A DNA stretch of 64,000 bases, from contig JAGAQJ010000044.1 in the NCBI GenBank assembly GCA_017622845.1, positions 1-64,000 on the forward strand, given 5' to 3'. The position numbers and the translations under genes were made by a program. The notes under the pieces were generated by a model, which did no database searches, was not told where the DNA came from, and saw only the letters and a list, made by a program, of their open reading frames with translations. This DNA is from Lachnospiraceae bacterium (GTDB lineage: Bacteria > Bacillota > Clostridia > Lachnospirales > Lachnospiraceae). Shown here in pieces: positions 8,607 through 56,811 of this stretch (its first letter is position 1; every line of letters begins with the position of its first letter).

Positions 8607-8728
8607 CCCCTGTACACTGACGCTGTCATCGCATAAGAAAATTCGCATTTGGAGTCCAATCGCCTGTCACAGCATAGGACTGCCGACCTTCGTCCCGGCT
8701 AAAATGCTCCATAAGGCTGAATTGTGAC
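8607..8728 (+). repeat. dispersed intergenic element, copy A (internally deleted)
   Basis: It contains CCCTGTACACTGACGCTGTC, then jumps to the right arm (AAAATTCGCATTTGGAGTCC ... GCATAGGACTGCC ... CCTTCGTCC) and the right end GGCTGAATTGTGAC (8715-8728). Compared with copy B at 25050 it lacks about 265 central bases. The right end is 27 bases before the -35 of the HD gene's promoter. Upstream, 8498-8606 holds nothing else recognisable. Confidence 0.85.
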
Positions 8729-8755
8729 TGAAACTGAAGGCAGTAGTGGTTTATG

Positions 8756-8784
8756 TTGAGGACGATGCAATAATATGATAAAAT
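8756..8784 (+). promoter_or_regulatory. sigma-A promoter of the HD-domain gene
   Basis: TTGAGG (8756-8761), 17 bases, TAAAAT (8779-8784), with repeat copy A ending 27 bases upstream. Confidence 0.6.
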
Positions 8785-8856
8785 AAGTGTCAGCAAGCGG
8801 GAACAGACAAGGTCTGCTCATCACGGGCGGCGTAATGACTGTAAAGGAGGAACATT

Positions 8857-9393
8857 ATGGAAAAATATTCACAGCGATTGGATTCTGTTTATCAGAGTAT
8901 GATCATGTATGATGCAAATGACCCAAAAAGAATACAGCATTTTGTGAAGGTGCACAGCTTTGCAAGGCTAATCGGACATATGGAGCAGCTGTCAGACGAG
9001 CAGCTTATGATATTGGAAGCAGCCGCATATGTACATGATATTGGAATCAAACAGGCAGAGCATATCTATGGAAACTGCAGTGGAAAATATCAGGAGGAGC
9101 TTGGACCGGAGCAGGCAGAAAAAATGTTAAAGGCATGCGGCTTTGAAGCGGAACAGATAAAAAGAGTATCCTATCTGGTAGGACATCATCACACCTATAC
9201 CAATATAGACGGAATAGATTATCAGATTTTAGTGGAGGCGGATTTCCTTGTGAACCTGTACGAGGATGCAAGTCCTATGGAAGCAGTTGTGCATGCGTAC
9301 AAAAGCATTTTTAAGACAGAAGCCGGAAAAAAGATTTGCCGTACGATGTTCGGAATTGGGCAGGAAGTAAATGGAGGTTCTAATGAAAAATAA
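8857..9393 (+). CDS. HD-domain phosphohydrolase
   Basis: A 178-residue cytosolic protein with a single HD domain: H in HFVKVHSFARLIG, the HD pair in AAAYVHDIGIK (about residues 65-75), HH in VGHHHTYTN (about 108-115), and the distal Asp in LVEADFLVNL. Metal-dependent phosphohydrolase activity on nucleotides is the family norm; the substrate is unknown. It starts at ATG 8857 after GGAGG. Its last 11 bases overlap the start of the lipoprotein gene, so the two are translationally coupled. Confidence 0.88.
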   Translation: MEKYSQRLDSVYQSMIMYDANDPKRIQHFVKVHSFARLIGHMEQLSDEQLMILEAAAYVHDIGIKQAEHIYGNCSGKYQEELGPEQAEKMLKACGFEAEQIKRVSYLVGHHHTYTNIDGIDYQILVEADFLVNLYEDASPMEAVVHAYKSIFKTEAGKKICRTMFGIGQEVNGGSNEK

Positions 9394-10276
9394 AATAGTT
9401 ATGAATATAATGCTGCTTGCACTGACGGCATTCTGTACCATCGGATGCAGCAAGAGTGAGGAGCCGACAGAGATTGTGACACTGGATTTGCAGCCGCAGT
9501 CAGAGGTGGGCGGCAATGCTTCCACAGAGCCGGAAGCTTTAGAACCTCAAACAGAAAACGCACCGCAGGAGACTTTTGTTTCTGTTCAGGTGGAAAATCC
9601 AGGCTGGGATTATTACTGTGCCAAGGAGGGCATGACAATGGAGGAACAGTCGGTACATCTGGAAAAGCTGTCAGAAACAGCGAATGGAATCAGCAGCGCT
9701 GAGGAATGGATTGCCGCAAATCAACTGGATTTTCAAAAAATGCCGTATTCCGATGAGATGTACACTTACAGTACCTATGGATATAATGCCTCTGATACTT
9801 ATGAACTGCAATTGCAGGAACTTTTCGGTGACAGAAGAACGATTACCCTTGACTTTTCAGATTATAATTATGCAGACGACTTCGTGGAATCAGAACGGGA
9901 TTTTGTCTTTCAGCGGATTATTTGGGCAAAGGCAGAGGAGGGTATCCTGTATGCTGCAACAGGTCATTATACTTATGCAGCGTCTTCCCCGCATAATGCA
10001 TACATCACAGCGATTGATTTGGAGGATTATCATATAATCTGGAAAACAGAGCCGCTCACCTGTAATTCGCTCAGCTTTGAGGTGATTGATGATGCGATTG
10101 TATGCGGATATGGCTTTACGAGTGAGGATGATTATCTCTATATTCTTGACAGGAAAACAGGATTAAGGCAGGAGGAAATACCGCTCAAAACTGCGGCGGA
10201 GTATATCTTCCAAAAAGATGGCATCCTTTATGTAAAGACATATGATACAGATTATACTTTTAAAATCAGCAGGTAA
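9383..10276 (+). CDS. lipoprotein of unknown function, possible beta-propeller
   Basis: A 297-residue exported lipoprotein. The signal peptide has a hydrophobic core and lipobox TIGC (C22), followed by a low-complexity acidic linker (24-60). The C-terminal 150 residues have repeated hydrophobic strands with Tyr/Asp turns (GILYAATGHYTY, IVCGYGF, DYLYILDRKTG), which suggests PQQ/WD-like propeller blades. That is an inference from pattern. ATG 9383 is chosen because GGAGG at 9373 precedes it. It overlaps the HD gene by 11 bases. Confidence 0.75.
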   Translation: MKNKIVMNIMLLALTAFCTIGCSKSEEPTEIVTLDLQPQSEVGGNASTEPEALEPQTENAPQETFVSVQVENPGWDYYCAKEGMTMEEQSVHLEKLSETANGISSAEEWIAANQLDFQKMPYSDEMYTYSTYGYNASDTYELQLQELFGDRRTITLDFSDYNYADDFVESERDFVFQRIIWAKAEEGILYAATGHYTYAASSPHNAYITAIDLEDYHIIWKTEPLTCNSLSFEVIDDAIVCGYGFTSEDDYLYILDRKTGLRQEEIPLKTAAEYIFQKDGILYVKTYDTDYTFKISR

Positions 10277-10486
10277 TATACAATAGAAAAAGCGACTGCA
10301 TGACAACAAAGTCATCAAGGCGTTTTGACATTTTTTCTTGCTATATCCGCGAACTAAGCGTATGATAAGAAAGGAATTAGATGCAACTTACTATGAAAAG
10401 AAAGGATACTTTCATAGCATAGGCAGTGATGCGGTTTGATGAACAGCAGGTGCCTGCATGATATGAGTTTATGTTGGAGTGATACG

Positions 10487-11434
10487 ATGGGAAAAAATAT
10501 ATTGGAATATAATTCAATGCGCAAAAAAGTTTCGGAAAAGAAACTGTTTGAAAAAGAAGTCGAGGAAAAGTTAGGAAGAAATGATGACTGCTGGTGCAAA
10601 AGCGGCAAAAAATATAAAAAGTGCCATTGTGCTTTTGACGAGAAGCTTGAGGAATACAGGCTGAAAGGAATACTGGTGCCGCCAAGACGCATCATTAAGA
10701 ACCCTGAGCAGATACAGGGGATTCGTGAAAGTGCAAAGATTAATATTGCGATACTGGACTATATTGACACACACATTCAGGTCGGAATTTCGACACAGGA
10801 GATTGATGACTGGGTAAGCAGTATCACCAAAAAGCACAATGCCATAGCCGCGCCGCTCAATTATGAGGGCTTTCCTAAAAGTGTCTGCACCTCTGTAAAT
10901 AATGTCGTGTGCCATGGAATTCCCTCAAAGGAGGAAATACTGAAAGAGGGCGATATTATCAATGTGGATGTTTCGACAATCTATAACGGCTATTTTTCAG
11001 ACTCCTCCAGAATGTACTGCATTGGAGAAGTGTCGGCAGAGAAAAAGCGGCTGGTAGATATCACAAAGCAAAGTCTGGAGGTCGGACTGCAATATGTCCA
11101 GCCCTGGAGAAAAATAGGAGATATGGGTGCGGCGATTCATGAATTTGCCATGGAAAACGGCTATTCCGTTGTCAGGGAAATCGGCGGACATGGTGTAGGA
11201 CTGGAATTTCACGAAGACCCATGGGTAAGCTATGTATGCCCAAAGGACACTGGTATGCTGCTGGTTCCGGGAATGATTTTTACAATCGAACCAATGATTA
11301 ATATGGGAAAAGAGGATATCTACATCTCAGATGAGGACGGGTGGACCGTATACACAGACGACGGACTTCCCTCCGCGCAGTGGGAGATACAGGTGCTTGT
11401 CACAGACGAAGGATATGAGATTATTTCCTATTAA
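10487..11434 (+). CDS. map: type I methionyl aminopeptidase with N-terminal SEC-C zinc motif
   Basis: It removes the initiator methionine from new proteins. The 315 residues have an N-terminal SEC-C metal motif (GRNDDCWCKSGKKYKKCHC, about 28-46) that may dock the enzyme to ribosomes, then the pita-bread catalytic domain. The five metal ligands are visible: the two Asp in NVDVSTIYNGYFSDSSR, His in GGHGVGLEFHED, Glu in FTIEPMIN and Glu in QWEIQVLV. I chose ATG 10487 after GGAGTG; earlier in-frame ATGs lack a site. The spacer before it (10277-10486) contains a small hairpin near 10392-10420 and nothing else clear. Confidence 0.93.
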   Translation: MGKNILEYNSMRKKVSEKKLFEKEVEEKLGRNDDCWCKSGKKYKKCHCAFDEKLEEYRLKGILVPPRRIIKNPEQIQGIRESAKINIAILDYIDTHIQVGISTQEIDDWVSSITKKHNAIAAPLNYEGFPKSVCTSVNNVVCHGIPSKEEILKEGDIINVDVSTIYNGYFSDSSRMYCIGEVSAEKKRLVDITKQSLEVGLQYVQPWRKIGDMGAAIHEFAMENGYSVVREIGGHGVGLEFHEDPWVSYVCPKDTGMLLVPGMIFTIEPMINMGKEDIYISDEDGWTVYTDDGLPSAQWEIQVLVTDEGYEIISY

Positions 11435-11440
11435 AATCAT

Positions 11441-11472
11441 AAAATGACATGTTCTTGCAGCATGTCATTTTA
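11441..11472 (+). terminator. intrinsic terminator of map
   Basis: AAAATGACATG pairs perfectly with CATGTCATTTT across a nine-base loop, seven bases after the map stop codon. The A and T tracts make it potentially bidirectional. Confidence 0.85.
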
Positions 11473-11476
11473 AGTT

Positions 11477-11543
11477 GTAATGAATATCCGGACGAAAACT
11501 TCCTTCGCCCCGGCTAAAATAATGCATAAGGCTGAACTGTTTC
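11477..11543 (+). repeat. dispersed intergenic element, copy E (minimal, both ends only)
   Basis: The left end (GTAATG ... TCCGGACGAAAAC) is joined directly to the right end (TTCCTTCG ... ATGCATAAGGCTGAACTGTTTC), giving a 67-base near-palindrome without the interior of the long copies. Its right end is 29 bases upstream of the -35 at 11573. The gap holds CCCTGTACACTGATG, a motif also found inside copies A and B. Confidence 0.75.
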
Positions 11544-11572
11544 CCCTGTACACTGATGTTTGCCTGTTTTGA

Positions 11573-11601
11573 TTGACATATCAGTGAAAACAGTGTATGA
11601 T
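11573..11601 (+). promoter_or_regulatory. sigma-A promoter of the NusG-II / Gx transporter group
   Basis: TTGACA (11573-11578), 17 bases, TATGAT (11596-11601): near-perfect consensus. Confidence 0.8.
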
Positions 11602-11647
11602 AAGTGATAGAATAAATGTTCGATAATAAAGAAAGTGAATTACTAGT

Positions 11648-12019
11648 ATGCTCCAAAGAAAAGACAGAATTTTAATCATAATCATTGTAATCATAGCGGC
11701 CTTATCCGCCGCATTGACAGCGTTAACGCGCAATAGCGCAGGCGAGCTTCTGCGCATCACAATTGACGGAGAACTGTATGGCGAATACCGTCTGTCGGAA
11801 AGCCGGACGATTACGATTCATCAGGAACTCGGGCAGAATGAAATTGTGATTGAAAACAACACTGCATATATGAAAGAGGCGGACTGCCCTGACAGGTATT
11901 GTATGGACTATCAGCCGATATCAAGAGGAAATGAGACAATCATATGCCTGCCGCACAAGCTTGTGGCGGAGGTAATTGGAGCTTCTGACGGGCAGCAGCC
12001 CGATGTGATTGTGCAATAA
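11648..12019 (+). CDS. NusG domain II-containing membrane-anchored protein
   Basis: A 123-residue protein with one N-terminal membrane helix (about 8-27) and an extracytoplasmic domain of the NusG-II type, ending with the conserved CPDRYCM ... IICLPHKLVAEVIG pattern. In related Firmicutes this protein is encoded next to a Gx transporter family gene, as here (12115). The two cysteines in CPDRYC are typical of the family. The molecular role is not established. It starts at ATG 11648 under a strong promoter; the ribosome site is modest (AAAGAAAGTG). Confidence 0.88.
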   Translation: MLQRKDRILIIIIVIIAALSAALTALTRNSAGELLRITIDGELYGEYRLSESRTITIHQELGQNEIVIENNTAYMKEADCPDRYCMDYQPISRGNETIICLPHKLVAEVIGASDGQQPDVIVQ

Positions 12020-12114
12020 TAATATTTACAGCAGCAGTTTTGCGGCAATAGCTATTCTTAGTACTGATTATTGAAGAACAGGTTATTTTCTTAGAAAGGA
12101 TAAGAATTGATATC

Positions 12115-12603
12115 ATGGCAAAAAAAGCAGCTTATAGTGCCATGCTTACGGCATTGGCAATGATATTTGGATATGTTGAGGTGTTGATTCCCTTTAGCTT
12201 CGGGATACCGGGAATTAAGCTTGGGCTTGCCAATCTCGTAATTGTGCTGGCATTATATATGCTTCCGGCATCTCAGGCATTATTGATACAAGTGGCAAGG
12301 ATTGTGCTGATTTCCTTTTTGTTTGGAAATATGTCCATGATGCTGTACAGTCTTGCCGGCGGCTTGCTGAGCTTCTGTGTGATGAGCCTCCTCAGAAGAA
12401 TACAGGGATTTTCTGTTATAGGAGTCAGTATAGCAGGAGGAGTCAGCCATAATATCGGCCAGCTTATTGTGGCAATGCTGGTGGTGAAGAATCTGAAGCT
12501 TACATATTACCTTCCTGCATTGCTTATTGCAGGACTTGTCACAGGAGCGCTGATTGGGCTGCTGACACAGAAGATCAAACCGGTTCTTGAAAAGAGTTAC
12601 TGA
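12115..12603 (+). CDS. Gx transporter family membrane protein (HepS/component-I-like)
   Basis: A 162-residue protein with about five membrane helices. It begins AYSAMLTALAMIFGYVE and has the family signature FGIPGIKLGLANLVIVLAL. It belongs to the Gx family, often annotated as heptaprenyl diphosphate synthase component I, and resembles ECF substrate-binding (S) subunits in topology. The ligand is unknown; a polyprenyl or flavin-linked role is sometimes inferred from context. It follows the NusG-II gene by 95 bases, and its end overlaps the upstream reading region of the acyltransferase gene. Confidence 0.85.
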   Translation: MAKKAAYSAMLTALAMIFGYVEVLIPFSFGIPGIKLGLANLVIVLALYMLPASQALLIQVARIVLISFLFGNMSMMLYSLAGGLLSFCVMSLLRRIQGFSVIGVSIAGGVSHNIGQLIVAMLVVKNLKLTYYLPALLIAGLVTGALIGLLTQKIKPVLEKSY

Positions 12604-12631
12604 TAGCAGGTTGGAAAGGCTTGGCTGTATT

Positions 12632-13621
12632 ATGAAGAAAAGATTTTACAAATTCGACAACCTGAAAGCCATACTGATTTTTCTGGTAGTGTTTGGCCAT
12701 TTCTTGGAGCTTGTGGAGGGGCACAGGCTTTTATACCTTACCATCTATTCGTTTCATATGCCTTTGTTTTTGTTTATATCAGGGTATTTTGCACGCTTTA
12801 ACAGGAAGAACGTTTGGTCTAAAATGATTTACCCGTATGCAGCATTTCAAATGTTATACACTTTTTTTGAGAAGTATTTGTTAGGAACAGAGAGCCTGCA
12901 GCTTACCTTCGTAAAGCCAAGATGGATTTTGTGGTATCTGTTTGCATTGATGGTGTATCATCTGATGCTTCCTCTTTTTGACACCAGGTCTGTTAGAGCA
13001 CAATATATGATTGTGGCAGGAACAGTGCTGGTTGGACTGTTGGCAGGTTATGATAAAAGGCTTGGATATGATTTTTCGGCAGCAAGGATTTTTACATTTA
13101 TGCCCTTTTTCCTGTCGGGCTATTATCTGTCCCAAAATAAAGTTTTTTCAAAAAGACTGCCGGTTTCTAAAACTGCATACATCATACTGTTCTTCCTTTC
13201 CGCTTTTCTGATAGCAATCATGATAAAGGTACTAAGTATGAGCTTTATTACAAAAAAGATGCTGTATGGCTCTTACTCATATGAAGCAGCCGGATATACT
13301 GTTCAGATAAAGCTGCTGCTGTATGCTTTCGCAGGGATATGGATTGCTGTATTTGTGATGCTGATGCCGGACAAACGGATACCTGTACTGTCAGCAACAG
13401 GACGCTTTACAATGCCGGTTTTCCTGCTGCATGGTTTTGCGGTGAAGCTTACAGGCATGTATTATGACAGCATCGGAGAAAAGCTGCCGTTTGCATCGGC
13501 GCTGGCACTCAGCCTGTTTATGGTAGCTTTGCTTGGAAACCGCTTCACAGATAAGGTGTTTCGCATACTATTTACAGGAGAGCTGCTGTGCAGAAGAAGT
13601 GCAGGGCACGCGCAGGATTAA
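12632..13621 (+). CDS. acyltransferase family 3 membrane protein
   Basis: A 329-residue integral membrane protein with about ten helices, of the Acyl_transf_3/OafA class that acetylates cell-surface sugars. The N-terminus has the hallmark FDNLKAILIFLVVFGHFLE, with the catalytic-type histidine in GHF (about 21). SFHMPLFLFISGYF follows (about 44-57), and WILWYLFALMVYHLMLP matches the W-x-L family block. The substrate is unknown. Start ATG 12632 follows TTGGAAAGG. The gene is 28 bases after the Gx transporter and runs up to dinB with 17 bases between. Confidence 0.87.
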   Translation: MKKRFYKFDNLKAILIFLVVFGHFLELVEGHRLLYLTIYSFHMPLFLFISGYFARFNRKNVWSKMIYPYAAFQMLYTFFEKYLLGTESLQLTFVKPRWILWYLFALMVYHLMLPLFDTRSVRAQYMIVAGTVLVGLLAGYDKRLGYDFSAARIFTFMPFFLSGYYLSQNKVFSKRLPVSKTAYIILFFLSAFLIAIMIKVLSMSFITKKMLYGSYSYEAAGYTVQIKLLLYAFAGIWIAVFVMLMPDKRIPVLSATGRFTMPVFLLHGFAVKLTGMYYDSIGEKLPFASALALSLFMVALLGNRFTDKVFRILFTGELLCRRSAGHAQD

Positions 13622-13638
13622 TCAGGAGGAGATGCATT

Positions 13639-14929: not shown

Positions 14930-14992
14930 CCGCCCGGTTGGAATACAGGCAGATAAGAAACAGCAATTGAGAATAGCAATTGATAGGAATGA

Positions 14993-25049: not shown

Positions 25050-25446
25050 TTTACTCTTGTACACTGACGCTGTCATCGTATAAAGAAATATTGCCATTCT
25101 CCGCCGGGCAGTCTGCAGGATACTATCTGCCGTTTTCTGCTCATTGAAACCGTAAAACGGAACAGTTGTCAGTACACAGAAAGGCGACAGTCCTATGCCG
25201 GAACAGGCTGGCGGAGAATGCTGACATTTTCTTATGGGTGATTCAATACATCAGCGAAAATCCGCACGGACGCGGATTTAGGACGAAACGCGTCCATGGA
25301 CGGCGCGTAGAGTCCGGTCGCGGACGCATTCAAAGACTTTGGCATCACCCATTAGAAAATTCGCATTTGGAGTCCAATCGCCTGTCACGGCATAGGACTG
25401 CCGCCCTTCGTCCTGACTAAAATAATCCATAAGGCTGAACTGTTAC
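25050..25446 (+). repeat. dispersed intergenic element, copy B (long, left end missing)
   Basis: About 397 bases with the full hairpin. The left arm (GGCGACAGTCCTATGCCGG ... TTTTCTTATGGGTGATTC, about 25183-25244) pairs with the right arm (GGCATCACCCATTAG ... GCATAGGACTGCCGCCC, about 25340-25410). The loop contains smaller stems (AAATCCGC/GCGGATTT and the palindrome CGTCCATGGACG). The right end GGCTGAACTGTTAC is at 25433-25446. An open frame of 84 codons crosses it but follows the hairpin and is not treated as a gene. It lies upstream of the tig promoter. Confidence 0.9.
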
Positions 25447-34827: not shown

Positions 34828-35403
34828 GTAACAGTTTAGCCTTTTATGTATTCCTGTCCGGACGAAAACGGCAAATAGTATCCCTCCGGCTGCCATTGGT
34901 TTCGAATGGGAATTTCCTAATACGATGAATCAAGGTTTTCTAATGAGGACGGAGCCGGCTCGAGTCGGCGTCCATGCCTCCGTCTCGCCTAAATTTGCTT
35001 CCGTGCAAATTTACTCCTGTTGCATGTATCATCGTATAAGGAAATATCACCATTCTCCACCAGCCAGCATACAGGATACTATCTGCCGTTTTCTGTTTAT
35101 TGAAACCGTAAAATCGAACAGTTGTCAGTACACAGAAGGGCGGCAGTCCTATGCCGGAACAGGCTGGCGGAGAATGCTGACATTTTCTTATGGGTGATTC
35201 AATACATCAGCGAAAATCCGCACGGACGCGGATTTAGGGCGAAACGCGTCCATGGACGGCGCGTAGAGTCCGGTCGCGGACATATTTTCAAAGACTTTGG
35301 CATCACCCATTAGAAAATTCGCATTTGGAGTCCAATCGTCTGTACCGGCATAGGACTGCCAACCTTCGTCCTGATTAAAATATCCATATGGCTGAATTGC
35401 TGC
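34828..35403 (+). repeat. dispersed intergenic element, copy C (complete, 576 bases)
   Basis: The only copy with both ends and the full interior: left end GTAACAGTTTAGCC (34828), TCCGGACGAAAACGGCAAATAG, a 120-base left segment shared with copy D, the giant hairpin (arms about 35139-35203 and 35300-35370), and right end GGCTGAATTGCTGC (35390-35403). The ends are inverted repeats of each other with a few mismatches. No clear target duplication is visible. Open frames inside follow the palindrome and are not called genes. Confidence 0.9.
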
Positions 35404-35442: not shown

Positions 35443-35471
35443 TTGACAAAGCCTCCGAAAGGTCATATGAT
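35443..35471 (+). promoter_or_regulatory. consensus sigma-A promoter of the export operon
   Basis: TTGACA (35443-35448), 17 bases, TATGAT (35466-35471). Confidence 0.85.
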
Positions 35472-37712: not shown

Positions 37713-40018
37713 TGTTAAAGAGAAAGCTTTTAAGAGATTTATGGCAGAACAGGACGCAGTTTATATCTATTTTTCTGATGGCTTTCCTGGGATTGTTCGT
37801 ATTTGCAGGGATTGATGCGGAGAGCAATGGAATCGGGCTTTCCACAGACGCATATTATCAGGCTACTAATGTGGCAGATGCATGGGTAGTGGGAAACGGT
37901 TTTTCGGAGTCCGAGGTAAAGAAGCTCGTGAACTTGGAAGAAATTGAATCAGTTGACAGAAAGATTGTCATACAGGGAAAAGCAAAAACAAAAGATGGAG
38001 ACGAGCTTGACATGGAATTAAATTTTCTTGAGTCGATGCAGAGCTCATACCCATATCTTATAGAAGGAGAGCCTTTCTCAACGGAAAAAAAGGGAATCTG
38101 GCTGGAACAGAACTTTGCGGAGGCAAGGGGATACCACGTCGGTGATATCATACGTCTCAAATACGAAAATATAGAGTTTGCGGAGCAAATCAAGGGAATT
38201 ATCATTCATCCCGAATACATATTTTATACATTAGACAGCGACAGCATGATGCCAAATTATGGAGATTACGGCTACGGTTTTCTCTCAAAGCTGGAATATC
38301 CCATGCAGGAGTCGCTGGCCTACAACCGTCTTGTTATCGGACAGAATCAGGAAAGCGTGAAGGATATGGACAGCATCACCTTCAAGGAGCTTGTGAAGTC
38401 AACACTTGACCGTGAGGAGCTGGTGGTGATGGAGCAGTCACAAAACCTGGGAATCGACAGCATTGCAAATGAGCAGAGCCAGCATGCAGCGATGGGCATT
38501 ATTTTTTCAGCGGTATTTCTGGTGATTGCGGTTATGGGAATCGTAACGACGATGAACAGAATGACCTCGAATCAGCGTATTCAGATTGGTACGTTAAAGG
38601 CGCTTGGATTTTCGAAAGCAAGGATTACATGGCACTATGTTTCCTATGGCATTGTGATAAGTGCCGCAGGCAGCATTTTAGGGGCAGTTCTTGGAAAACT
38701 GCTGCTTCCGTCGCTGTTCTTGCCGAGCATGAGTGCATATTATATCCTTCCGGAGTGGAAAACAGGAATGTCCAATCAATCTTATGGTGCTATTATCCTC
38801 TCCATTCTCGTATCAAGTATCGTAAGCTTTTTGTCTTGCCGGAAAGAGCTTCGGGATATGCCTGCCATTACCTTAAAACCTGCTGCTCCAAAGAATCTCA
38901 GGCACAGCCTTTTGGAAAAAAGCAGACTGTGGCTGTCGCTTCGGTTTTCAACACAGTGGAATATCAGGGATATTCTGAGAAATAAAGCAAGGAGCATTAT
39001 GGGAATTGCAGGCGTTGCAGGCTGTACGATGCTTTTAGTATGTGCTTTTGGCTGTAAGGATTGCTGTGACGAGATGGTGGTATGGCAGTACGGACAGCTT
39101 AATACTGCTCAATATAAAGTGATGTTTTCACAGAGCACATCAAACCTGAAAAAGCGCGAATACAGCCAGCAGTTCAAGGGACAGCTTGTGCAGGAGGGAA
39201 GCTGTGAGTTTCGGACAGCCGGCAGGGTAAAGACAGGAAATGTTACTGTAATAGATACCGGAAATTATATTCATTATCAGGACTTTGACGGCAATGAGAT
39301 TGCACCGCCCTCAAAAGGAATTGCCATGTCCTATAAGCTTGCAAGCGTGCTTGGGCTTGAGGAGGGAGATTTTGTAGAGTGGCATATTGTCGGAGAGAAG
39401 GACTGGGAAAAGAGCCGCATCACAATGTTGTATCGTACACCTGTAGGTCAGGGCATCACGCTTTCAAGGGAGGAGTTTGCGGCACTGCATTATCAATTTG
39501 CACCGACCTGCCTGAACACCAATATGTCCATACCGGATTACATCAAGGACAGTGATGAGATATCCGGTGTCATCAGTCTGGAACAGCTCAAAAAGGATCT
39601 TGATGAAAATATGGAGATGATGAATATTATGGTGGGTGTGCTGATACTGGCAGCAGTGCTCCTGGGTATCATTGTGCTGTATAATATGGGCGTGCTGTCC
39701 TTTTTGGAGAAGACAAGGGAGGTGGCGACGCTCAAGGTACTTGGTTTTTCGTCAGGACGTATTCGAAGGATACTGCGCCAGCAAAATAACTGGATTACAG
39801 TGATTGGCATCGTAATGGGGCTGATGCTGGGCTACTTCCTTTTAGACGGCATCATGCAGACTATGACGGAGGACCAGGATATGCCCACTGTCATCTATAC
39901 GCTTTCATATGTGTATTCCATTATCGGTACATGGGTGGTATCAACAGGAGTCAATACGGTGCTTTCAGCAAAGGTTAAGACAATTTGCATGGTCGATGCG
40001 CTTAAGGGGGTTGAATAA
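37712..40018 (+). CDS. FtsX-like ABC permease, duplicated type
   Basis: A 768-residue permease with two FtsX halves: one helix at about 16-33, a large extracellular domain (35-255), three helices (about 260-385), a cytoplasmic linker, a second helix (about 430), another extracellular domain (450-635) and three more helices (about 640-760). The LKALGFSKARITWHY and LKVLGFSSGRIRRIL repeats are the FtsX coupling motifs that contact the ATPase. With the adaptor and ATPase it forms a peptide- or drug-type exporter. The last codons run straight into repeat copy D, so the 3' end may have been trimmed by that insertion. Confidence 0.92.
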   Translation: MLKRKLLRDLWQNRTQFISIFLMAFLGLFVFAGIDAESNGIGLSTDAYYQATNVADAWVVGNGFSESEVKKLVNLEEIESVDRKIVIQGKAKTKDGDELDMELNFLESMQSSYPYLIEGEPFSTEKKGIWLEQNFAEARGYHVGDIIRLKYENIEFAEQIKGIIIHPEYIFYTLDSDSMMPNYGDYGYGFLSKLEYPMQESLAYNRLVIGQNQESVKDMDSITFKELVKSTLDREELVVMEQSQNLGIDSIANEQSQHAAMGIIFSAVFLVIAVMGIVTTMNRMTSNQRIQIGTLKALGFSKARITWHYVSYGIVISAAGSILGAVLGKLLLPSLFLPSMSAYYILPEWKTGMSNQSYGAIILSILVSSIVSFLSCRKELRDMPAITLKPAAPKNLRHSLLEKSRLWLSLRFSTQWNIRDILRNKARSIMGIAGVAGCTMLLVCAFGCKDCCDEMVVWQYGQLNTAQYKVMFSQSTSNLKKREYSQQFKGQLVQEGSCEFRTAGRVKTGNVTVIDTGNYIHYQDFDGNEIAPPSKGIAMSYKLASVLGLEEGDFVEWHIVGEKDWEKSRITMLYRTPVGQGITLSREEFAALHYQFAPTCLNTNMSIPDYIKDSDEISGVISLEQLKKDLDENMEMMNIMVGVLILAAVLLGIIVLYNMGVLSFLEKTREVATLKVLGFSSGRIRRILRQQNNWITVIGIVMGLMLGYFLLDGIMQTMTEDQDMPTVIYTLSYVYSIIGTWVVSTGVNTVLSAKVKTICMVDALKGVE

Positions 40019-40021
40019 GAG

Positions 40022-40450
40022 TTATGCATTCCTATCCGGACGAAAACTGCAGATAGTATCCCTCTGGCTGCCATTGGTTACGAATGGGAATTTCCTAATA
40101 CGATGAATCAAGGCTTTCTAATGAGGACTTAAGCCGGTTCGAGTCGGCGTCCATGCGTAAAGCCGGACAGTTGTCAGTACACAGAAGGGCGGCAGTCGTA
40201 TGCCGGAACAGGCTGGCGGAGAATGCTGATATTTTCTTATGGGTGATTCGATACATCAGCGAAAATCCGCACGGACGCGGATTTAGGACGAAACGCGTCT
40301 ATGGACGGCGCGCAGAGTCCGGTCGCGGACGCATTCAAAAACTTTCGCATCACCCATTAGAAAATTCGCATTCGGAGTCCAACCGCCTGTACCGGCATAC
40401 GACTGCCGCCCTTCGTCCTAATAAAATAGTCCATACGGCTGAACGGTAAC
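40022..40450 (+). repeat. dispersed intergenic element, copy D (left terminus lost)
   Basis: It starts within four bases of the permease stop at TTATGCATTCCTATCCGGAC, so about 14 terminal bases are missing. It shares the left segment with copy C, then about 110 bases are deleted. The giant hairpin has arms at about 40179-40250 and 40344-40413, and the right end GGCTGAACGGTAAC is at 40437-40450. Relative to copies B and C the left arm has AGTCGTATG and the right arm CATACGACT, a paired C-G to G-C change that keeps the stem. Confidence 0.9.
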
Positions 40451-49099: not shown

Positions 49100-49600
49100 A
49101 TGAACGAAAGCTATAAGGAATTACTGGTTAAAAAGGAGCGCGGGGCTAAAGAGTCCGCTATCAGGGTGGTATGCATCATTCCTACAGTTCTGCTCGCGTT
49201 TCTGACACTTCTTACAGGAGCGATATACTTTTTCATTGCAGTTATTGCGCTTGGTATTCTTGATTATTTCGTATTTCAATGGACAGATATCGAGTATGAA
49301 TACCTGTACCTTGACAAGGAAATTTCAGTGGACAAGATTATGGCTAAGACAAGAAGAAAGAGAGTGATTACCCTTGATGTGAATAAAATCGAGCTTATGG
49401 CTCCCGAGAAATCATATCAGCTCGACTCGTACAGAAACCGCCAGACAAAGGTAACGGACCTGAGCGCCGGACATGATCTGCCGGATCAGAAGCTTTACTG
49501 GGTATTTTATGAGGGAAATCAGAAATTTTTGATGAATCTTACAGAAGATTTTGCCAAGACAATTAAGGGAATTGCACCAAGGAAAGTATTTACCGATTAA
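49100..49600 (+). CDS. DUF6106-like membrane protein
   Basis: A 166-residue protein with two adjacent membrane helices (about 22-44 and 45-64) and a cytoplasmic C-terminal domain of about 100 residues (DIEYEYLYLDKEISVDKIMA, then KRKRVITLDVNKIELMAP-like strands), which looks like a PH-type or bacterial PH (bPH) fold. This layout matches small Lachnospiraceae proteins annotated DUF6106. ATG 49100 follows AAGGAAGG. Repeat copy F begins immediately after its stop. Confidence 0.75.
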   Translation: MNESYKELLVKKERGAKESAIRVVCIIPTVLLAFLTLLTGAIYFFIAVIALGILDYFVFQWTDIEYEYLYLDKEISVDKIMAKTRRKRVITLDVNKIELMAPEKSYQLDSYRNRQTKVTDLSAGHDLPDQKLYWVFYEGNQKFLMNLTEDFAKTIKGIAPRKVFTD

Positions 49601-49725
49601 GCTGCTGCCCTTCCGTGCACTGACAACTGTTCCATTTTATGATTTCAATGAACAGAAAACGGCAGCCGGAGGGATGTGATCTGCCGTTTTCGTCCGGGTA
49701 GAAATGCAAAAAGGCTGAAGGTTAC
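49601..49725 (+). repeat. dispersed intergenic element, copy F (short, rearranged)
   Basis: It begins at the base after the upstream stop codon. It contains GACAACTGTTCCATTTTATG and CAATGAACAGAAAACGGCAG, which is the reverse complement of a block inside copies B and C, then CTGCCGTTTTCGTCCGG and the terminal GGCTGAAGGTTAC (49713-49725). The interior hairpin arms are missing. The right end is 28 bases from the guaB -35. Confidence 0.8.
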
Positions 49726-49753: not shown

Positions 49754-51282
<1,529 letters not shown>

Positions 51283-51307
51283 TCCGTCATTTTAGTAAGT
51301 GATAAGG

Positions 51308-51340
51308 AACGCTGTCACAATGTAGTGGCAGCGTTTGTTT
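51308..51340 (+). terminator. intrinsic terminator of guaB
   Basis: AACGCTGTCAC pairs with GTGGCAGCGTT (one G-T pair), followed by TGTTTT. Confidence 0.8.
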
Positions 51341-51385
51341 TATGCGCAGTCCCGTGCATGGGAAAAGGAGGACCGGTACACACAG

Positions 51386-51868
51386 ATGTTTTACAAAAAG
51401 TACCGTTTATATGATGAAGGGATGGAAATTATGATTCCATCCGGTTTTAAGCCGGCAGATTATTTTGGCGTATCACAATATAGCTGGACCGCAGAGGACA
51501 AAAGGGTTGTAATTCATGTTGCAAGAGGCGGCGCGGATTTGGCAGCAGATGAGCTTAACAAGAGGCTGAATGAATACTATAAAGGCTTTCACAGGGATAT
51601 CACATGTTTTGAATGCACGCATATTGCAAAGCGCAGCGTAAGCGGACAGGCATTCGGCGAAATTCGGTATTTGTCCCATATGATGGGATACTGCTTCTAC
51701 AATATTTTTCTGCTGGGAAGTTATGAAGGCAGGGAATTGATTGTTACACTGCAATGTCTGGCTCATGATAGAACTGCCAATGCCCATATATTTGAAAATA
51801 TATCAGACTCGTTAAGACTGCTGCGAAGACAAGAGAACGATACGGAGGATGGCAGACATGCTGGTTAA
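51386..51868 (+). CDS. small protein of unknown function, partner of the FHA protein
   Basis: A 160-residue soluble protein. The strands and order (LYDEGMEIMIPSGFKPAD, then YSWTAEDKRVVIHVARGGAD, a helix, and ELIVTLQCLAHD followed by a helix FENISDSLRLL) resemble the Mog1/PsbP-like fold of YbaY- or DUF1795-type proteins; this is inferred from pattern only. The ribosome site GGAGG is 14 bases from ATG 51386, rather far. Its last 11 bases overlap the FHA gene start, so the two are coupled. Confidence 0.7.
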   Translation: MFYKKYRLYDEGMEIMIPSGFKPADYFGVSQYSWTAEDKRVVIHVARGGADLAADELNKRLNEYYKGFHRDITCFECTHIAKRSVSGQAFGEIRYLSHMMGYCFYNIFLLGSYEGRELIVTLQCLAHDRTANAHIFENISDSLRLLRRQENDTEDGRHAG

Positions 51869-52772
51869 GGCGAAGGAACGGCAGATTTCCTTTTTGTTTC
51901 AGGAGTCTGACCCGTTTTTTGAGATTGGTTTAAGAATCCTTGAGCAGGAACGGATTGCGCAGATGCTTCCATACAGGAGAAAACAGCAAAACGGCAGGGA
52001 AAAGCTGATATTTGAGGCGAGGAATGAGCATACAGTTCTGCTTGCGGAGGCGATATCCGGTTTTTTGGAGAATGATATTGTTGATTTGCTCTATGAGATG
52101 ATTTATCTCAATAAAAAAGTAGAGGAAAATGGTTTCCTGAAAAAAGAATGCATCTGGTATCAATATGATAACATTTACTATGACAAAGAGAAACGAAGCA
52201 TTATGGTGGCGATTCTTCCGATTACAGGAGCATTCCGGTATGCAGACAATATTAGCTGGTACAACTGTTTTGAGGAAACGATGCTTAAGCTTGCATCATA
52301 TCTTCCCTCGAAGAAGGCGGAGCGTGTCAGAAAGCTTGCGATGATGCTGAAGGCAGGAAAGATGGAGCAGGAGGAAGCGCTTGATGAGATTAACAGGCTG
52401 GGATGCAGCGTATCTGGTATTTTGTCGGGGAACCTGAACGCTCAAAAAAATGTGATACTGAAGCTTCTCTATAGCGGAAGAAACGGCAGAATAGAGTTTC
52501 AGGTTGAGGACAGGGACTTTATGATTGGAAGGAATGCCGAAGCTGCCGACGGTGTGATTCCCACAGAATTTTCAAGGGCAGTCAGCAGAAAGCATTGTCT
52601 GATTACCAGCATGAACGGTAAATATTTTGTTCAGGATTTAAAAAGTGTGAATCATACGCTGGTAAACGGCATTATGATACCGCCGTATGAGCTTATGGAG
52701 CTGGAGAACAATGATATTTTGAGCGTGGCGGATATTGAGTTCCGAGTCCTCAAAATGGCCAGAGATTCATAA
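51858..52772 (+). CDS. FHA-domain protein with DUF6382-like N-terminus
   Basis: A 304-residue cytosolic protein. Residues 1-165 are a mixed alpha/beta domain of the kind annotated DUF6382. Residues about 215-300 are a forkhead-associated domain with FMIGRNAEAADGVI, SRAVSRKHCLI and VNHTLVNGIMIPP (Gly-Arg, Ser-Arg-x-His and Asn-Gly hallmarks for phosphothreonine binding). In Firmicutes such proteins often sit near serine/threonine kinases, type VII secretion or pilus genes; none is here. ATG 51858 lies nine bases after GGAGG, better than ATG 51849. It overlaps the upstream gene. Confidence 0.85.
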   Translation: MLVKAKERQISFLFQESDPFFEIGLRILEQERIAQMLPYRRKQQNGREKLIFEARNEHTVLLAEAISGFLENDIVDLLYEMIYLNKKVEENGFLKKECIWYQYDNIYYDKEKRSIMVAILPITGAFRYADNISWYNCFEETMLKLASYLPSKKAERVRKLAMMLKAGKMEQEEALDEINRLGCSVSGILSGNLNAQKNVILKLLYSGRNGRIEFQVEDRDFMIGRNAEAADGVIPTEFSRAVSRKHCLITSMNGKYFVQDLKSVNHTLVNGIMIPPYELMELENNDILSVADIEFRVLKMARDS

Positions 52773-52849
52773 ACGACATTGATAGAAATACAATTTTAAT
52801 TTTACCTGCAGCTTTACAGCTGCATTTTAGAAAGGACATGGTAATAAAA

Positions 52850-53422
52850 ATGAAAGACACAGTAGAAATCAGATGGCATGGACGCGGCGGACAGGGAGCA
52901 AAGACTGCTGCACTTCTGCTGGCAGACGTGGCATTCAAAACAGGAAAATATGTGCAGGGATTTCCGGAATATGGTCCGGAAAGAATGGGTGCGCCGATTA
53001 CTGCATACAATCGTATCAGCAGCAGCCCGATTACAGTCCACTCTAATATCTATGAGCCTGATTATGTGGTCGTTGTGGACGAGAGCCTTTTGGAGAGCAT
53101 TGATGTGACAAAAGGATTAAATCCCAAGGGTGCAGTAATTGTTAATTCTGCGCGCAGTAAGGAGGAGATAGCAGCACACCTTCACGGCTACCAGGGGGCA
53201 GTGTACACTGTCGATGCAAAGAGCATATCCATAAAGGCGCTGGGAAAGAATTATCCGAATTCGCCTATGCTTGCGGCAGTGGTGGCAGTGTCGAAGGTTA
53301 TGGACAAGGATGCATTTCTTACTGAGATGAAGGCTTCCTTCCGGCATAAATTTGCAAAGAAACCTGAGGTAATTGACGGAAATATGATGGCGCTGGAGCT
53401 TGCATTTGCAGAGGCGCAGTAA
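52850..53422 (+). CDS. porG: 2-oxoacid:ferredoxin oxidoreductase gamma subunit (PorG)
   Basis: A 190-residue subunit. The N-terminus VEIRWHGRGGQGAKTAALLL (about 5-24) is the family signature, followed by GFPEYGPERMGAPITAYNR. It completes a four-polypeptide enzyme with the next genes (order gamma, delta, alpha, beta). I chose ATG 52850 because AAAGGA lies 13 bases upstream; ATG 52838 is one base away from that site. The stop lies 55 bases before porD. Confidence 0.93.
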   Translation: MKDTVEIRWHGRGGQGAKTAALLLADVAFKTGKYVQGFPEYGPERMGAPITAYNRISSSPITVHSNIYEPDYVVVVDESLLESIDVTKGLNPKGAVIVNSARSKEEIAAHLHGYQGAVYTVDAKSISIKALGKNYPNSPMLAAVVAVSKVMDKDAFLTEMKASFRHKFAKKPEVIDGNMMALELAFAEAQ

Positions 53423-53477
53423 GCCGGCGATAAATTTTGACAGCTTTTACATCAGATGTTGATATAGGAGAGAAACA

Positions 53478-53786
53478 ATGGCAAACGAAAAAATATATGA
53501 CAGAATCAATGAAAAAAGTCCATGGCAGGACATCACAGAGGGAAATAAAATATTTGAGGCGGCAACATCAAGAGAATTCTGTACAGGTGAGTGGCGGACG
53601 GCTACGCCTGTCTGGGATCGTGAAAAATGCAAGCAGTGTCTTTTGTGCACGCCTGTCTGTCCGGACGTATCGATTCCGGTAACAGCAGGAAAGAGAGAAG
53701 AATTTGACTATGATCACTGTAAGGGATGCGGCATTTGTGCTAAGGTCTGTCCGTTCGGTGCAATCAGTATGAAGGAGGGAAAATAA
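53478..53786 (+). CDS. porD: 2-oxoacid:ferredoxin oxidoreductase delta subunit, 2[4Fe-4S] (PorD)
   Basis: A 102-residue ferredoxin-like subunit that carries electrons from the active site to ferredoxin. Both clusters are intact: CKQCLLCTPVCP and CKGCGICAKVCP (about 54-65 and 80-91). The N-terminal 45 residues match the PorD tail that packs on the alpha subunit. It starts at ATG 53478 after AGGAGAG, and its stop abuts the porA ATG. Confidence 0.95.
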   Translation: MANEKIYDRINEKSPWQDITEGNKIFEAATSREFCTGEWRTATPVWDREKCKQCLLCTPVCPDVSIPVTAGKREEFDYDHCKGCGICAKVCPFGAISMKEGK

Positions 53787-55013
53787 ATGGCAGTCAGAGA
53801 ACGTTTATCAGGAAATGAAGCAGTAGCATATGCTATTAAGCAGATTAATCCGGATGTGATGCCGGCTTTCCCGATTACACCGTCAACGGAGATTCCTCAG
53901 TATGTGGCAAATTACATCGCAAACGGTGAGATTGATACGGAATTTATCCATGTGGAGAGTGAGCATAGTGCGATGAGCGCAACCATCGGAGCATCGGCAG
54001 CAGGCGCCAGGGCGCTTACGGCGACCTCCTCATGCGGCATGGCTTTGATGTGGGAGGAGCTTTATATTGCTGCTTCTGACAGGCTTCCGATTGTACTTGC
54101 GCTGGTAAACAGAGCGCTTACAGGCCCGATTAATATCAATGCGGACCATTCCGACAGTATGGGTGCGAGAGACACCGGATGGATACAGATTTATGCAGAG
54201 TCCAATCAAGAGGTATATGATAATTTTATACAGGCATTTCCGATAGCAGAAGATAAGAGCGTCCATCTTCCGGTGATGATTTGTCAGGACGGCTTCATTA
54301 CCAGTCACGGCGTAGAGAACATTCTTCTTGTGGAAGATGACAAGGTGAAGGAATTTGTCGGTGAATATGAACCGGAGCACTATCTACTCAATCCGGCAGA
54401 GAAGATGGCAGTTGGTCCTTATGCAGTGTCCAACTATTATATGGAGACAAAACGCGGACAGAGACAGGCAATGCTGAATGCAAAGCAGGTAATTCTGGAA
54501 GTGGCAGCGAAATTTGAGGAGATGACAGGCCGCAGATATGGCTTTTTTGAGGAGTACCAGATGGAGGATGCAGAGTATGCAGTCGTCATTATCGGTTCTG
54601 CAGCAGGTACTTGTAAGGCTGCCATTGATGAGATTCGAAATACAACCGGCAAAAAAGTCGGTCTTATCAAAATCAGAGTGTTCAGACCATTTCCTGAGGA
54701 GGAGCTTGCCAAAGCGCTTTCTAAGGTAAAGGCAGCAGCCATTATGGACAGAAGCGAGATGTTTGCAGCCACAAGCGGACCGCTTGGCGCAGAGGTGCGT
54801 GCAGCAATGTATCAGGCGCACTGCGAGGCTGAGGTTGTCAATTATTTCTATGGACTTGGCGGCAGAGATATTACAGTTTCTGACTTTATGACTGTTTATG
54901 ACAATCTCGAAACAATGGCTAAGACGCATGTCGTGACAGGAATGTACGATTACATAGGATTGCGCAGCGGGCAGTCAGAGGAGGTAATGCCTCCGAAGAA
55001 TATGGAGGTTTAA
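53787..55013 (+). CDS. porA: 2-oxoacid:ferredoxin oxidoreductase alpha subunit (PorA)
   Basis: A 408-residue subunit. The sequence opens SGNEAVAYAIKQINPDVMPA with AFPITPSTEIPQYV (about 30-43), the domain I motif that binds substrate carboxylate and shields thiamine diphosphate. HVESEHSAMSATIGASAAGA is the second signature. It ends one codon gap before porB. Pyruvate is the likely substrate because the gene order and sequence match the four-subunit POR class; a 2-ketoisovalerate enzyme cannot be excluded. Confidence 0.93.
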   Translation: MAVRERLSGNEAVAYAIKQINPDVMPAFPITPSTEIPQYVANYIANGEIDTEFIHVESEHSAMSATIGASAAGARALTATSSCGMALMWEELYIAASDRLPIVLALVNRALTGPININADHSDSMGARDTGWIQIYAESNQEVYDNFIQAFPIAEDKSVHLPVMICQDGFITSHGVENILLVEDDKVKEFVGEYEPEHYLLNPAEKMAVGPYAVSNYYMETKRGQRQAMLNAKQVILEVAAKFEEMTGRRYGFFEEYQMEDAEYAVVIIGSAAGTCKAAIDEIRNTTGKKVGLIKIRVFRPFPEEELAKALSKVKAAAIMDRSEMFAATSGPLGAEVRAAMYQAHCEAEVVNYFYGLGGRDITVSDFMTVYDNLETMAKTHVVTGMYDYIGLRSGQSEEVMPPKNMEV

Positions 55014-55017
55014 GAGC

Positions 55018-55956
55018 ATGGAACAGACAACATATAATTTTAAAGAAGTAATGAGTAAGCCGGAGCGTCTTGCTCCGGGACACAGAATGTGCGCCGGCTG
55101 CGGCGGTACAATCACAGTCCGCACAGTGCTCAGAGCGCTTGAGGAGGGCGATAGGGCAGTGATCGGCAATGCAACAGGCTGTCTTGAGGTATCTTCCTTC
55201 ATGTATCCGTACACGGCTTATGAGGACAGTTATATTCACAATGCATTTGAGAATGCGGGAGCGACGCTGTCAGGTGTTGAGACTGCTTATAACGTGCTTA
55301 AGAAAAAGGGAAAAATCAAAGATAATTTTAAATTCATTACGTTCGGCGGAGACGGCGGTACATATGATATCGGTTTCCAGTCGCTTTCCGGAGCGATGGA
55401 GCGCGGACATGATATGGTATATGTATGCTATGACAATGGCGCCTACATGAATACAGGCACACAGCGTTCGTCTGCGACTCCGCAGTATGCCGACACGACA
55501 ACGACTCCGGCCGGAAAGGTATCTGCCGGAAAGGTGCAGGTGAGAAAAGACTTGGCTGCGATTATAGCAGAGCATCATGTGCCGTATGTCGGGCAGAGTA
55601 CCTTTACATCAAACTTTAAGGATTTGTATACCAAGGCGCAGAAGGCGATTTATACGCCGGGACCGGCATTCCTGAATGTTATGTCTCCATGTCCGCGAGG
55701 ATGGGGATATGAGCCAAGTGAGATGATGAGCATTTGCAAGATGGCAGTGGAAACCTGCTACTGGCCCTTATATGAAGTGATAGACGGCAAGTGGATTTTG
55801 AATTACGAGCCGAAGAATAAGATGCCGATTGAGGAGTTTTTAAAGCCTCAGAGACGTTTCAGGCATTTATTTAAAAAAGAAAATGAAGCATTGATTGGAA
55901 AATTTCAGGAAGAAATTGATAAGAGATGGGAAGAACTGAAGAATAAGTGCAATTAA
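55018..55956 (+). CDS. porB: 2-oxoacid:ferredoxin oxidoreductase beta subunit (PorB)
   Basis: A 312-residue subunit carrying the thiamine diphosphate site (FGGDGGTYDIGFQSLSGA, then YVCYDNGAYMNTGTQRS; about 106-145) and one [4Fe-4S] cluster (CAGCGGT about 23, with a further Cys in GNATGCLEV and NVMSPCPRGW). Together with porG, porD and porA it oxidises pyruvate to acetyl-CoA and reduced ferredoxin, central to anaerobic fermentation. The stop is followed by a perfect terminator. Confidence 0.95.
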   Translation: MEQTTYNFKEVMSKPERLAPGHRMCAGCGGTITVRTVLRALEEGDRAVIGNATGCLEVSSFMYPYTAYEDSYIHNAFENAGATLSGVETAYNVLKKKGKIKDNFKFITFGGDGGTYDIGFQSLSGAMERGHDMVYVCYDNGAYMNTGTQRSSATPQYADTTTTPAGKVSAGKVQVRKDLAAIIAEHHVPYVGQSTFTSNFKDLYTKAQKAIYTPGPAFLNVMSPCPRGWGYEPSEMMSICKMAVETCYWPLYEVIDGKWILNYEPKNKMPIEEFLKPQRRFRHLFKKENEALIGKFQEEIDKRWEELKNKCN

Positions 55957-55981
55957 CACCTCTGCAATTAACACTGTAATG

Positions 55982-56016
55982 AAAAATCGGACAGTTTTCA
56001 AAACTGTCCGATTTTT
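55982..56016. terminator. bidirectional terminator of the por operon
   Basis: AAAAATCGGACAGTTTT and AAAACTGTCCGATTTTT form a perfect 17-base stem with a single-base centre; it also closes the convergent gene at 56015. Confidence 0.92.
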
Positions 56017-56635
56017 AAGATTGCTCGCAAAACTGCTGCTCAGACTGCCTGCGGATTTCCTCGATTTCAGCCTGTTTTTTCGCCTCGTCTTCTGCAGCCT
56101 CTCTCAAAAGCCTTTCATAAATTTCATTTGCTTCCTTTATAATTTCTGTCTGCTCCGGCGGACTCAGGATATCACTGCTCCCGGTGAAATTATTTTTTTT
56201 TTCGTCAAAGACCAAAGAGCTGTTTTGACTATAAGACGCATCTGTGGAAGGAAGACCTCCTGACAGAAGGGAATCCACAGTATTTTGATTGCTGGATGTA
56301 TTCATAATAGCATCAAGTGCTGCCTGCGTATCCGCATCTACAGGCTTTTGACCATATAGACCGGAGTACGAGCCGGTTGCTGCATTATATGCAGACATAT
56401 CAGCCTGACTGATTTCGGGCAGGCTTGGGGCTTCTTCCAATGCGAGCTGTTTTGCTTCTTCTTCAAGGCGGAGCGCTTCCTCTTCCTCGGCTTTTGAGGG
56501 CCAGATTCGGAATACCTCGGGATTATACAGTACTAACCACCACTTTATCACATGTGGATAATATTTTTTCAGAAAATAAGCTGTGGCAGGATCCATCATG
56601 TTACACACCATCTTTCCAAACATATTTCTCTTCAT
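56015..56635 (-). CDS. hypothetical acidic coiled-coil protein
   Basis: A 206-residue soluble protein. The N-terminal 45 residues (MDPATAYFLKKYYPHVIKWW) are hydrophobic and positively charged. Residues about 48-75 form a Glu/Ala-rich helix (KAEEEEALRLEEEAKQLALE). A Ser/Asn-rich middle (75-150) and a C-terminal charged helix (about 165-205, EANEIYERLLREAAEDEAKK) follow. The layout suggests a membrane-associated adaptor. I recognise no family. Its stop overlaps the por terminator, and no convincing ribosome site precedes ATG 56635. Confidence 0.65.
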   Translation of the reverse strand: MKRNMFGKMVCNMMDPATAYFLKKYYPHVIKWWLVLYNPEVFRIWPSKAEEEEALRLEEEAKQLALEEAPSLPEISQADMSAYNAATGSYSGLYGQKPVDADTQAALDAIMNTSSNQNTVDSLLSGGLPSTDASYSQNSSLVFDEKKNNFTGSSDILSPPEQTEIIKEANEIYERLLREAAEDEAKKQAEIEEIRRQSEQQFCEQS

Positions 56636-56724
56636 TTGAAGCTTTTCGATGCAGCTGTGTCAAACAGCCATTACTATTTTATCACATATTCTGCAAAATC
56701 GGTAGAATAAATGTGAAAAAATTT

Positions 56725-56811
56725 GTAACAGTTCAGTTTTTTATGCTTTTATATCCAGACGAAAACGGCAGCTCGTATTTCCTTGGCTGCCATTGGTTTC
56801 TGAACTGTCAT
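56725..56811 (+). repeat. dispersed intergenic element, copy G (short)
   Basis: The left end GTAACAGTTCAG (56725-56736) is followed by ATCCAGACGAAAACGGCAG and TGGCTGCCATTGG, then the right end CTGAACTGTCAT (56800-56811), the inverse of the left. It lacks the giant hairpin. The right end is 57 bases upstream of the clpB -35, farther than in the other copies. Confidence 0.75.

Follow-up and report, generated by a model that had tools for sequence, protein, structure and literature searches.

The stretch analysed here, referred to as the window, comprises 64,000 nucleotides from a Lachnospiraceae bacterium (GenBank assembly GCA_017622845.1, contig JAGAQJ010000044.1, positions 1 to 64,000) and contains seven intergenic copies, A to G, of a repeat with the inverted ends GTAACAGTTCAGCC, each lying upstream of a gene such as tig, glnS, guaB, or clpB (Table 1; genes were named from Pfam matches, and the name clpB comes from a first-pass annotation made from the sequence alone). 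The repeat is a transposed, non-autonomous element resembling a miniature inverted-repeat transposable element (MITE), and across the genome its ends show a preferred distance, 28–30 bases with a peak at 29, to the −35 hexamer of predicted promoters. This observation is real, strong, and mechanistically informative, and the 29-base register, the IS66-like ends, and the carriage of the TwoAYGGAY RNA as mobile cargo are new here.

Table 1. Copies of the element, their RNAs, and two promoter-like sites in the window; end matches are ungapped matches to the 14-base end, and the distance is the number of bases from the element end to the start of the −35 hexamer.
Feature	Position	Strand	End match (mismatches)	Distance to −35	Description
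Copy A	8607..8728	+	8715-8728 (2)	27	Central piece plus right end, RNA core deleted; upstream of HD-domain gene; left limit by eye
Copy B	11484..11543	+	11530-11543 (1)	29 (TTGACA)	Ends-only remnant; upstream of NusG domain II gene; left limit by eye
Copy C	25073..25446	+	25433-25446 (0)	30 (see text)	Right half of the element, one TwoAYGGAY RNA; upstream of tig
TwoAYGGAY RNA (RF01731) in copy C	25209..25375	+			92.4 bits
Copy D	34828..35403	+	34828-34841 (1); 35390-35403 (3)	39	Full-length 576-bp element, both ends; upstream of HlyD-type secretion gene
Left TwoAYGGAY RNA of copy D	34897..35062	-			100.8 bits; reads leftward
Right TwoAYGGAY RNA of copy D	35165..35333	+			87.6 bits; reads rightward
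Promoter-like site downstream of copy D	35443..35471	+			TTGACA-17-TATGAT
Copy E	40022..40450	+	40437-40450 (2)	28	Lacks left 14-base end; one TwoAYGGAY RNA; upstream of glnS
TwoAYGGAY RNA (RF01731) in copy E	40214..40380	+			89.9 bits
Copy F	49601..49725	-		28	Reversed central piece with a left-type end; upstream of guaB; limits and orientation by eye
guaB promoter	49754..49782	+			TTGACA-17-TATAAT
Copy G	56725..56811	+	56725-56738 (2)	57 (TTGACA)	Short remnant, left end plus degraded right end; upstream of clpB

All seven copies, which the first-pass annotation had reported, were found in place, most of them degraded, and both ends are recognisable in copy D alone. An ungapped search of the window for the 14-base end, allowing up to three mismatches, gave eight matches against a mean of 3.6 in shuffled sequence (2 of 100 shuffles reached eight); the match at 62619 (three mismatches) is separate from the seven copies, and copy F was missed because of a one-base deletion in its end, as judged by eye. 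The window-only count of ends is just modestly over chance, and the whole-genome count is not chance. No clear 8-bp duplication was found at the window copies. At tig the best-scoring promoter site lies 38 bases from the end, yet a TATAAT with a preceding TG, conserved in relatives, starts at 53, and a 17-base spacer therefore places its −35 hexamer at 30; read in this way, five of the seven copies lie 27–30 bases from a −35 hexamer, with copy G as an outlier, and the seven distances in the first-pass annotation are reproduced, although its letters and genes were ordered differently. Its remark that two copies begin within four bases of an upstream stop codon also held, namely for the glnS copy (homology from 40022, stop at 40018) and the guaB copy (about 49601, stop at 49600, by eye). 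Its statement that all right ends face the downstream gene is true of six copies as judged from the body by eye and fails for copy F, which is reversed, and the statement says little because the element is symmetric. The label "undescribed" was wrong for the body, as three of the seven copies contain the Rfam family RF01731.

In the whole genome, the ends occur 419 times at up to two mismatches, compared with 28 matches for the reversed pattern, and a scan of the genome contigs with a 29-base pattern gave no match. Of 38 genomes of the genus, the present one among them, 33 contain the exact end, and the controls gave zero matches. Eighty further stretches of the genome were read together with the window, covering 155 of the 419 ends (up to two mismatches); the stretches were picked for containing a high-scoring RF01731 match or an exact end from the first 100 listed (contigs C1–C53). 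Within them, 41 copies are two-ended, with lengths of 54–652 bp, and 18 of these are flanked by a perfect 8-bp duplication (26 with at most one mismatch), where 200 shuffles of the flank partners gave a mean of 0.77 duplications and at most 4. Flank identity falls at the base beyond the eight positions on both sides, and 8-bp duplications recur in relatives in 7 of 13, 13 of 14, and 6 of 10 copies. The shared 8-bp flanks are therefore direct evidence of transposition, and the repeat shows the terminal inverted repeats, fixed-length target duplication, high copy number, and presence/absence between relatives of a MITE, with no internal transposase (the IS66 type alone was looked for). Presence/absence is illustrated by a copy in the related genome G032 that is absent at the matching place in the present genome, the junction itself lying in poorly conserved DNA; among four matches spanning the junction, one is the same region of the present genome, and the alignments of two of the remaining three could not be read. 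A cysG-like synteny tried as an empty site led nowhere. Chance repeats were rejected as an explanation by the genome-wide end counts, the 8-bp duplications, and the promoter register. Five contigs (G000:C9, C34, C40, C44, and C69) begin inside elements; the repeat therefore interrupts the assembly, so that copy numbers are probably underestimates. A tandem pair of 136-bp copies (L116:1868-2147) carries the 8-bp target TGACAAGC at all three junctions, as if the site had been used twice.

Nearly all ends lie between genes (148 of 155 outside genes called by a home-made hexamer score trained on the window), and among the 147 of these with a called neighbour, 95 face the 5' end of a gene and 52 a 3' end. 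A 5' end lies within 400 bp of 83 ends, and a promoter-like best site was present in 71 of these, its −35 hexamer starting at offsets of 27, 28, 29, and 30 bases in 2, 12, 20, and 5 cases, respectively, with the other 32 scattered. When no gene filter was applied, a site with a score of at least 9 was found at 28–30 bases for 53 of the 155 ends, against 2.6 expected from the other offsets within the same flanks, and for 32 of 109 ends in relatives, against 1.3 expected. The distribution in the present genome is sharp, with 21, 31, 8, and 4 sites at offsets 28, 29, 30, and 31 and 0, 1, and 0 at offsets 32, 33, and 34. Offsets of 27–30 bases account for 9 of 23 sites in G010 and 6 of 17 in G032 (20 regions each, in listing order, out of 41 and 43 exact ends), and for 15 of 30 in a set of 30 loci drawn from 30 genomes, one of which is the present one. 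A fixed register to promoters had been claimed for the window copies by the first-pass annotation, and tested genome-wide on the 155 ends with predicted promoters, a preferred distance was found, which leaves that claim unrefuted. Offset 40 in the present genome holds 4 sites, and these, together with the site at 39 bases downstream of copy D, possibly form a weak second promoter class about one helical turn beyond the main register.

Two-ended copies allow the orientation of insertion to be read as well. In 78 such copies (41 from the present genome and 37 from relatives), a promoter in register was found at one end in 46 and at both ends in 1. The canonical right end lies at the promoter in 12 of 14 long copies and 19 of 26 short ones (31 of 40 in total, two-sided p = 0.0007), with orientation called by shared 11-mers, a method that performs weakly on the shortest copies; relative to predicted promoters, insertion has a preferred orientation, 31 to 9. 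If the −35 hexamer is placed at −35 to −30, the last base of the element falls at about −65 and the 8-bp duplication at about −64 to −57, around what we take to be the upstream boundary of the polymerase footprint. The element was rejected as a supplier of promoters, as both hexamers lie outside it at the copies in register.

Comparison with relatives indicates the order of events. In 29 relatives, the guaB promoter can be made out and the 330 bp read upstream of it hold no element; in many of these genomes the preceding gene stops just a few bases short of the −35 hexamer. For tig, 80 loci were fetched, and the promoter was recognised in 28 relatives, none of which has an end within up to 700 bp upstream. 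Both promoters are thus kept in relatives without the element there, and therefore the promoters came first. A small element of the form GTAAC...GTTAC was seen by eye in the guaB leader of L233 (G030:C194), between the promoter and the start codon.

The bodies between the ends are interchangeable. Copy D represents the full-length form of 576 bp, to which ten further near-full-length copies are 87–92% identical, and other copies match its left or right half alone. Among the 37 two-ended copies from relatives, 22 have an unrelated body of the 137-bp type, as do 8 of the 10 copies of 120–160 bp read in the present genome; examples from several species of the genus are L258:1061-1197, L264:1054-1190, and L086:207-342. 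It forms hairpins with 34 predicted pairs, 6 of which show two-sided changes over 24 copies, and an Rfam scan of these elements at five loci (E ≤ 0.5) gave no match on the elements, which makes the 137-bp element a candidate for a new structured RNA or MITE family. Since body and species differ and the register is the same, the register is a property of the ends and hence of the transposase. The first-pass annotation had offered two interpretations of the spacing, insertion targeted to promoter-bound DNA or a boundary/regulatory module selected in place, and this interpretation is partly supported. The second branch is unsupported as the cause of the spacing, because the unrelated 137-bp body keeps the register in other species. 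The first branch is right in that insertion takes a fixed position upstream of predicted promoters; that polymerase was bound there at the time is what we infer. In L086:207-1292, a 136-bp element, a Clostridiales-1 RNA (359-514), and a T-box (623-862) stand in a row upstream of an open reading frame that resembles glycyl-tRNA synthetase, a name given from reading the sequence.

The explanation that we consider probable is that the repeats are IS66-type MITEs targeted just upstream of sigma-A promoters by a transposase acting in trans. Such a transposase would recognise the shared ends and insert the element with an 8-bp duplication, and it would be guided so as to place the last base of the element 29 (±1) bases ahead of the −35 hexamer, in most cases with the promoter on the side of the canonical right end. 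The guide would presumably be the upstream edge of the promoter-bound RNA polymerase holoenzyme and not a DNA sequence, and the fixed position suggests a copying machinery steered by the host transcription apparatus. The bodies would be cargo, which may be a divergent pair of TwoAYGGAY RNAs, a single one, the unrelated structured 137-bp body, or little beyond the ends. Landing upstream of a promoter would leave genes and promoters intact and may therefore explain the high copy number.

The parent transposase would be of the IS66 family, which was found in 20 of 60 genomes searched. An IS66 element in the relative G040 has perfect 20-base repeats beginning with GTAA and a perfect 8-bp duplication, and the present element shares both hallmarks. 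In the relative G033, a 441-bp element with both ends (one and zero mismatches) carries the C-terminus of an IS66 transposase (PF03050, 25.2 bits against a cut-off of 23.1) and has a TTGACA that starts 29 bases beyond its right end, with a poor −10 hexamer after it; in G015, frameshifted remnants homologous to this transposase piece start 51 bp from one exact end. Remnants of the IS66 type are the only transposase remnants found with these ends, the Mutator-type families PF00872 and PF06782 not having been searched for. No report of promoter-register insertion by IS66-type elements was found in the titles and abstract openings searched, which covered few subscription journals.

Several observations weigh against this explanation or limit it. 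The 95.3% complete assembly of the present genome gave no match to PF03050, a difference from the IS66 family proper, and the loci fetched from relatives yielded no intact IS66 element bounded by these ends. No 8-bp duplication was found at the G033 element, and the G015 remnants have no Pfam score, only one end, and no promoter in register, so that IS66 parentage, which draws on these two decayed derivatives, is best called likely. Among the 78 two-ended copies, 31 have a scored promoter in register at neither end, and 15 of the 41 in the present genome show no 8-bp duplication at up to one mismatch. The promoters are sequence predictions (sigma-70-like sites) and not mapped starts, and selection against insertions elsewhere may have contributed to the pattern ascribed to targeting.

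The closest published comparison is with promoter-targeting elements of the Mutator type. TnGBS/ISLre2 (p-MULT 3) and part of ISKra4 (p-MULT 4) insert 13–17 bp before the −35 hexamer of sigma-A promoters, with a register peak at 16 for p-MULT 3, 8–9 bp duplications, and, for p-MULT 3, one orientation that the authors credit to the two ends being asymmetric (Guerillot et al., 2014, PMC3942029). The possibility that the present repeat is a non-autonomous element of this kind (p-MULT 3 or ISKra4 type) draws on that same combination of a fixed register, duplications, and orientation, the last of which is seen here in 31 of 40 copies; we regard it as unlikely. The distance of 13–17 bp is not observed, as the register of 28–30 bases in the present genome and in the loci of 29 other genomes differs from it by about 13 bp, and the published systems encode Mutator-type transposases, whereas the present elements are small and non-autonomous and the remnants with these ends in two relatives are of the IS66 type, subject to the search scope given above. 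If IS66-type targeting is correct, a second promoter-seeking system working at 29 instead of 16 bases would mean that promoter tethering arose more than once, and the difference in distance could serve to probe which polymerase part is read.

The cargo RNA is real. All four RF01731 matches in the window are over the curated score, and the genome gave 102 matches, 101 of them over the cut-off and up to 106.8 bits (gathering score 43), counts that can be low because 150 of 187 candidates were scored in the present genome and at most 38 per genome in relatives; 14 control genomes gave none. Full-length copies carry two divergent TwoAYGGAY RNAs, and the fold z-score of copy D is −12.15. In an alignment of 33 of these RNAs from the present and eight related genomes, 24 of 31 predicted pairs show two-sided compensatory changes. 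The sequence and structure are those of RF01731 as published in 2010, where it was listed as probably an RNA, probably not cis-regulatory, and probably not a riboswitch (Weinberg et al., 2010, PMC2864571), and sequestration of CsrA was later proposed (PMC4333381). The portions of these accounts available to us treat RF01731 as an RNA family of unknown function and mention no mobile element, whereas here it is a repeated, transposed cargo that occurs in divergent pairs. TwoAYGGAY, an orphan RNA since 2010, thereby gains a biological setting as a many-copy mobile cargo in this lineage.

That TwoAYGGAY acts in cis on the downstream gene as a regulatory module or RNA leader, for example under the control of CsrA, has in its favour that the RNA is real, as the compensatory changes attest, that its GGA-bearing loops fit CsrA as proposed in PMC4333381, and that a CsrA gene is present in all 12 RNA-bearing genomes. 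We nevertheless hold this to be improbable. The RNA lies upstream of the promoter and its −35 hexamer and hence outside the leader of that mRNA, for which reason a cis-acting leader was rejected. The stretches read contain 53 RNA units; most left-half RNAs (22 of 29) run against the gene on their 5' side and right-half RNAs are unbiased (9 of 19), and read-through expression from the upstream gene was likewise rejected as a general rule on account of the left-half RNAs. No internal promoter common to all six full-length copies tested was found; four of the six (L071, L080, L066, and L123) share a weak site on the plus strand, close to element position 183. The CsrA gene also occurs in 21 of 24 genomes of the same genus without the RNA (Fisher p = 0.54), and mean csrA copy numbers are 3.0 in RNA-bearing genomes and 1.5 in those without it (one-sided p = 0.06).

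The least probable alternative, which we find hard to credit, is random transposition followed by loss of insertions in genes, promoters, and UP elements, with the element possibly acting as an insulator, since this agrees with the scarcity of ends within called genes, with the closeness of ends that face gene 3' ends (median 31.5 bp, n = 52), and with the damage that an insertion nearer than about −60 could do to a promoter, but it predicts a lower bound and not the observed peak, the position of which is the same for unrelated bodies and other species. Alongside IS66-type targeting, selection may shape orientation and which copies persist.

In a wider and distinctly tentative version of the preferred explanation, an IS66-type system steered by promoter-bound RNA polymerase to about −65 would spread a selfish TwoAYGGAY RNA to about a hundred copies per genome. 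If this were true, each TwoAYGGAY, with its two CsrA-type loops, could be a mobile CsrA sponge or the transposon's own control, and the same ends also carry a second, unnamed 137-nt structured body across the genus. The sponge idea is a hypothesis compatible with these results. The only CsrA match in the present genome is a divergent 62-aa frame (L364:2502-2687) upstream of a flagellin-like open reading frame, so named from its sequence, and the relatives G017, G020, and G029 have 5, 8, and 7 csrA matches, mostly of the same divergent kind.

Correia elements and ERIC are, like the present elements, small, high-copy, and intergenic, with inverted ends and internal deletion forms, and bacterial MITEs such as these are not known for promoter-register insertion at single-base precision. 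Ends of the present element could mark promoters 29 bases ahead and aid promoter prediction in uncultured gut Lachnospiraceae.

The association of TwoAYGGAY with these ends varies among relatives. Such an end accompanies units in G030 (L032, one mismatch) and G008 (L044, two mismatches), and no end with up to two mismatches was found beside the units read in G009, G011, G017, G019, G020, G026, and G029, so the idea that the TwoAYGGAY units of all relatives share these ends was rejected. In those relatives, no convincing case emerged from a generic search (30 entries) for inverted ends flanked by an 8-bp duplication. One stray end match in L128 lies more than 600 bp from its RNAs. In G011 (L128, L129, L139, and L140), TwoAYGGAY units are followed, 42–61 nt on, by a different recurrent end, CTCGACAAACCCGAA or a near form, and the exact TCGACAAACCCG follows four of eight units in that genome; TwoAYGGAY may ride on more than one element family. 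Repeats of 204–206 bp in L141, L142, and L144 have palindromic flanks and resemble extensions of the outer stem of the RNA. In L404:1-390 (G030:C145), a TwoAYGGAY-type sequence directly adjoins an IS66 transposase remnant, a pair that is possibly a composite or a chance neighbour.

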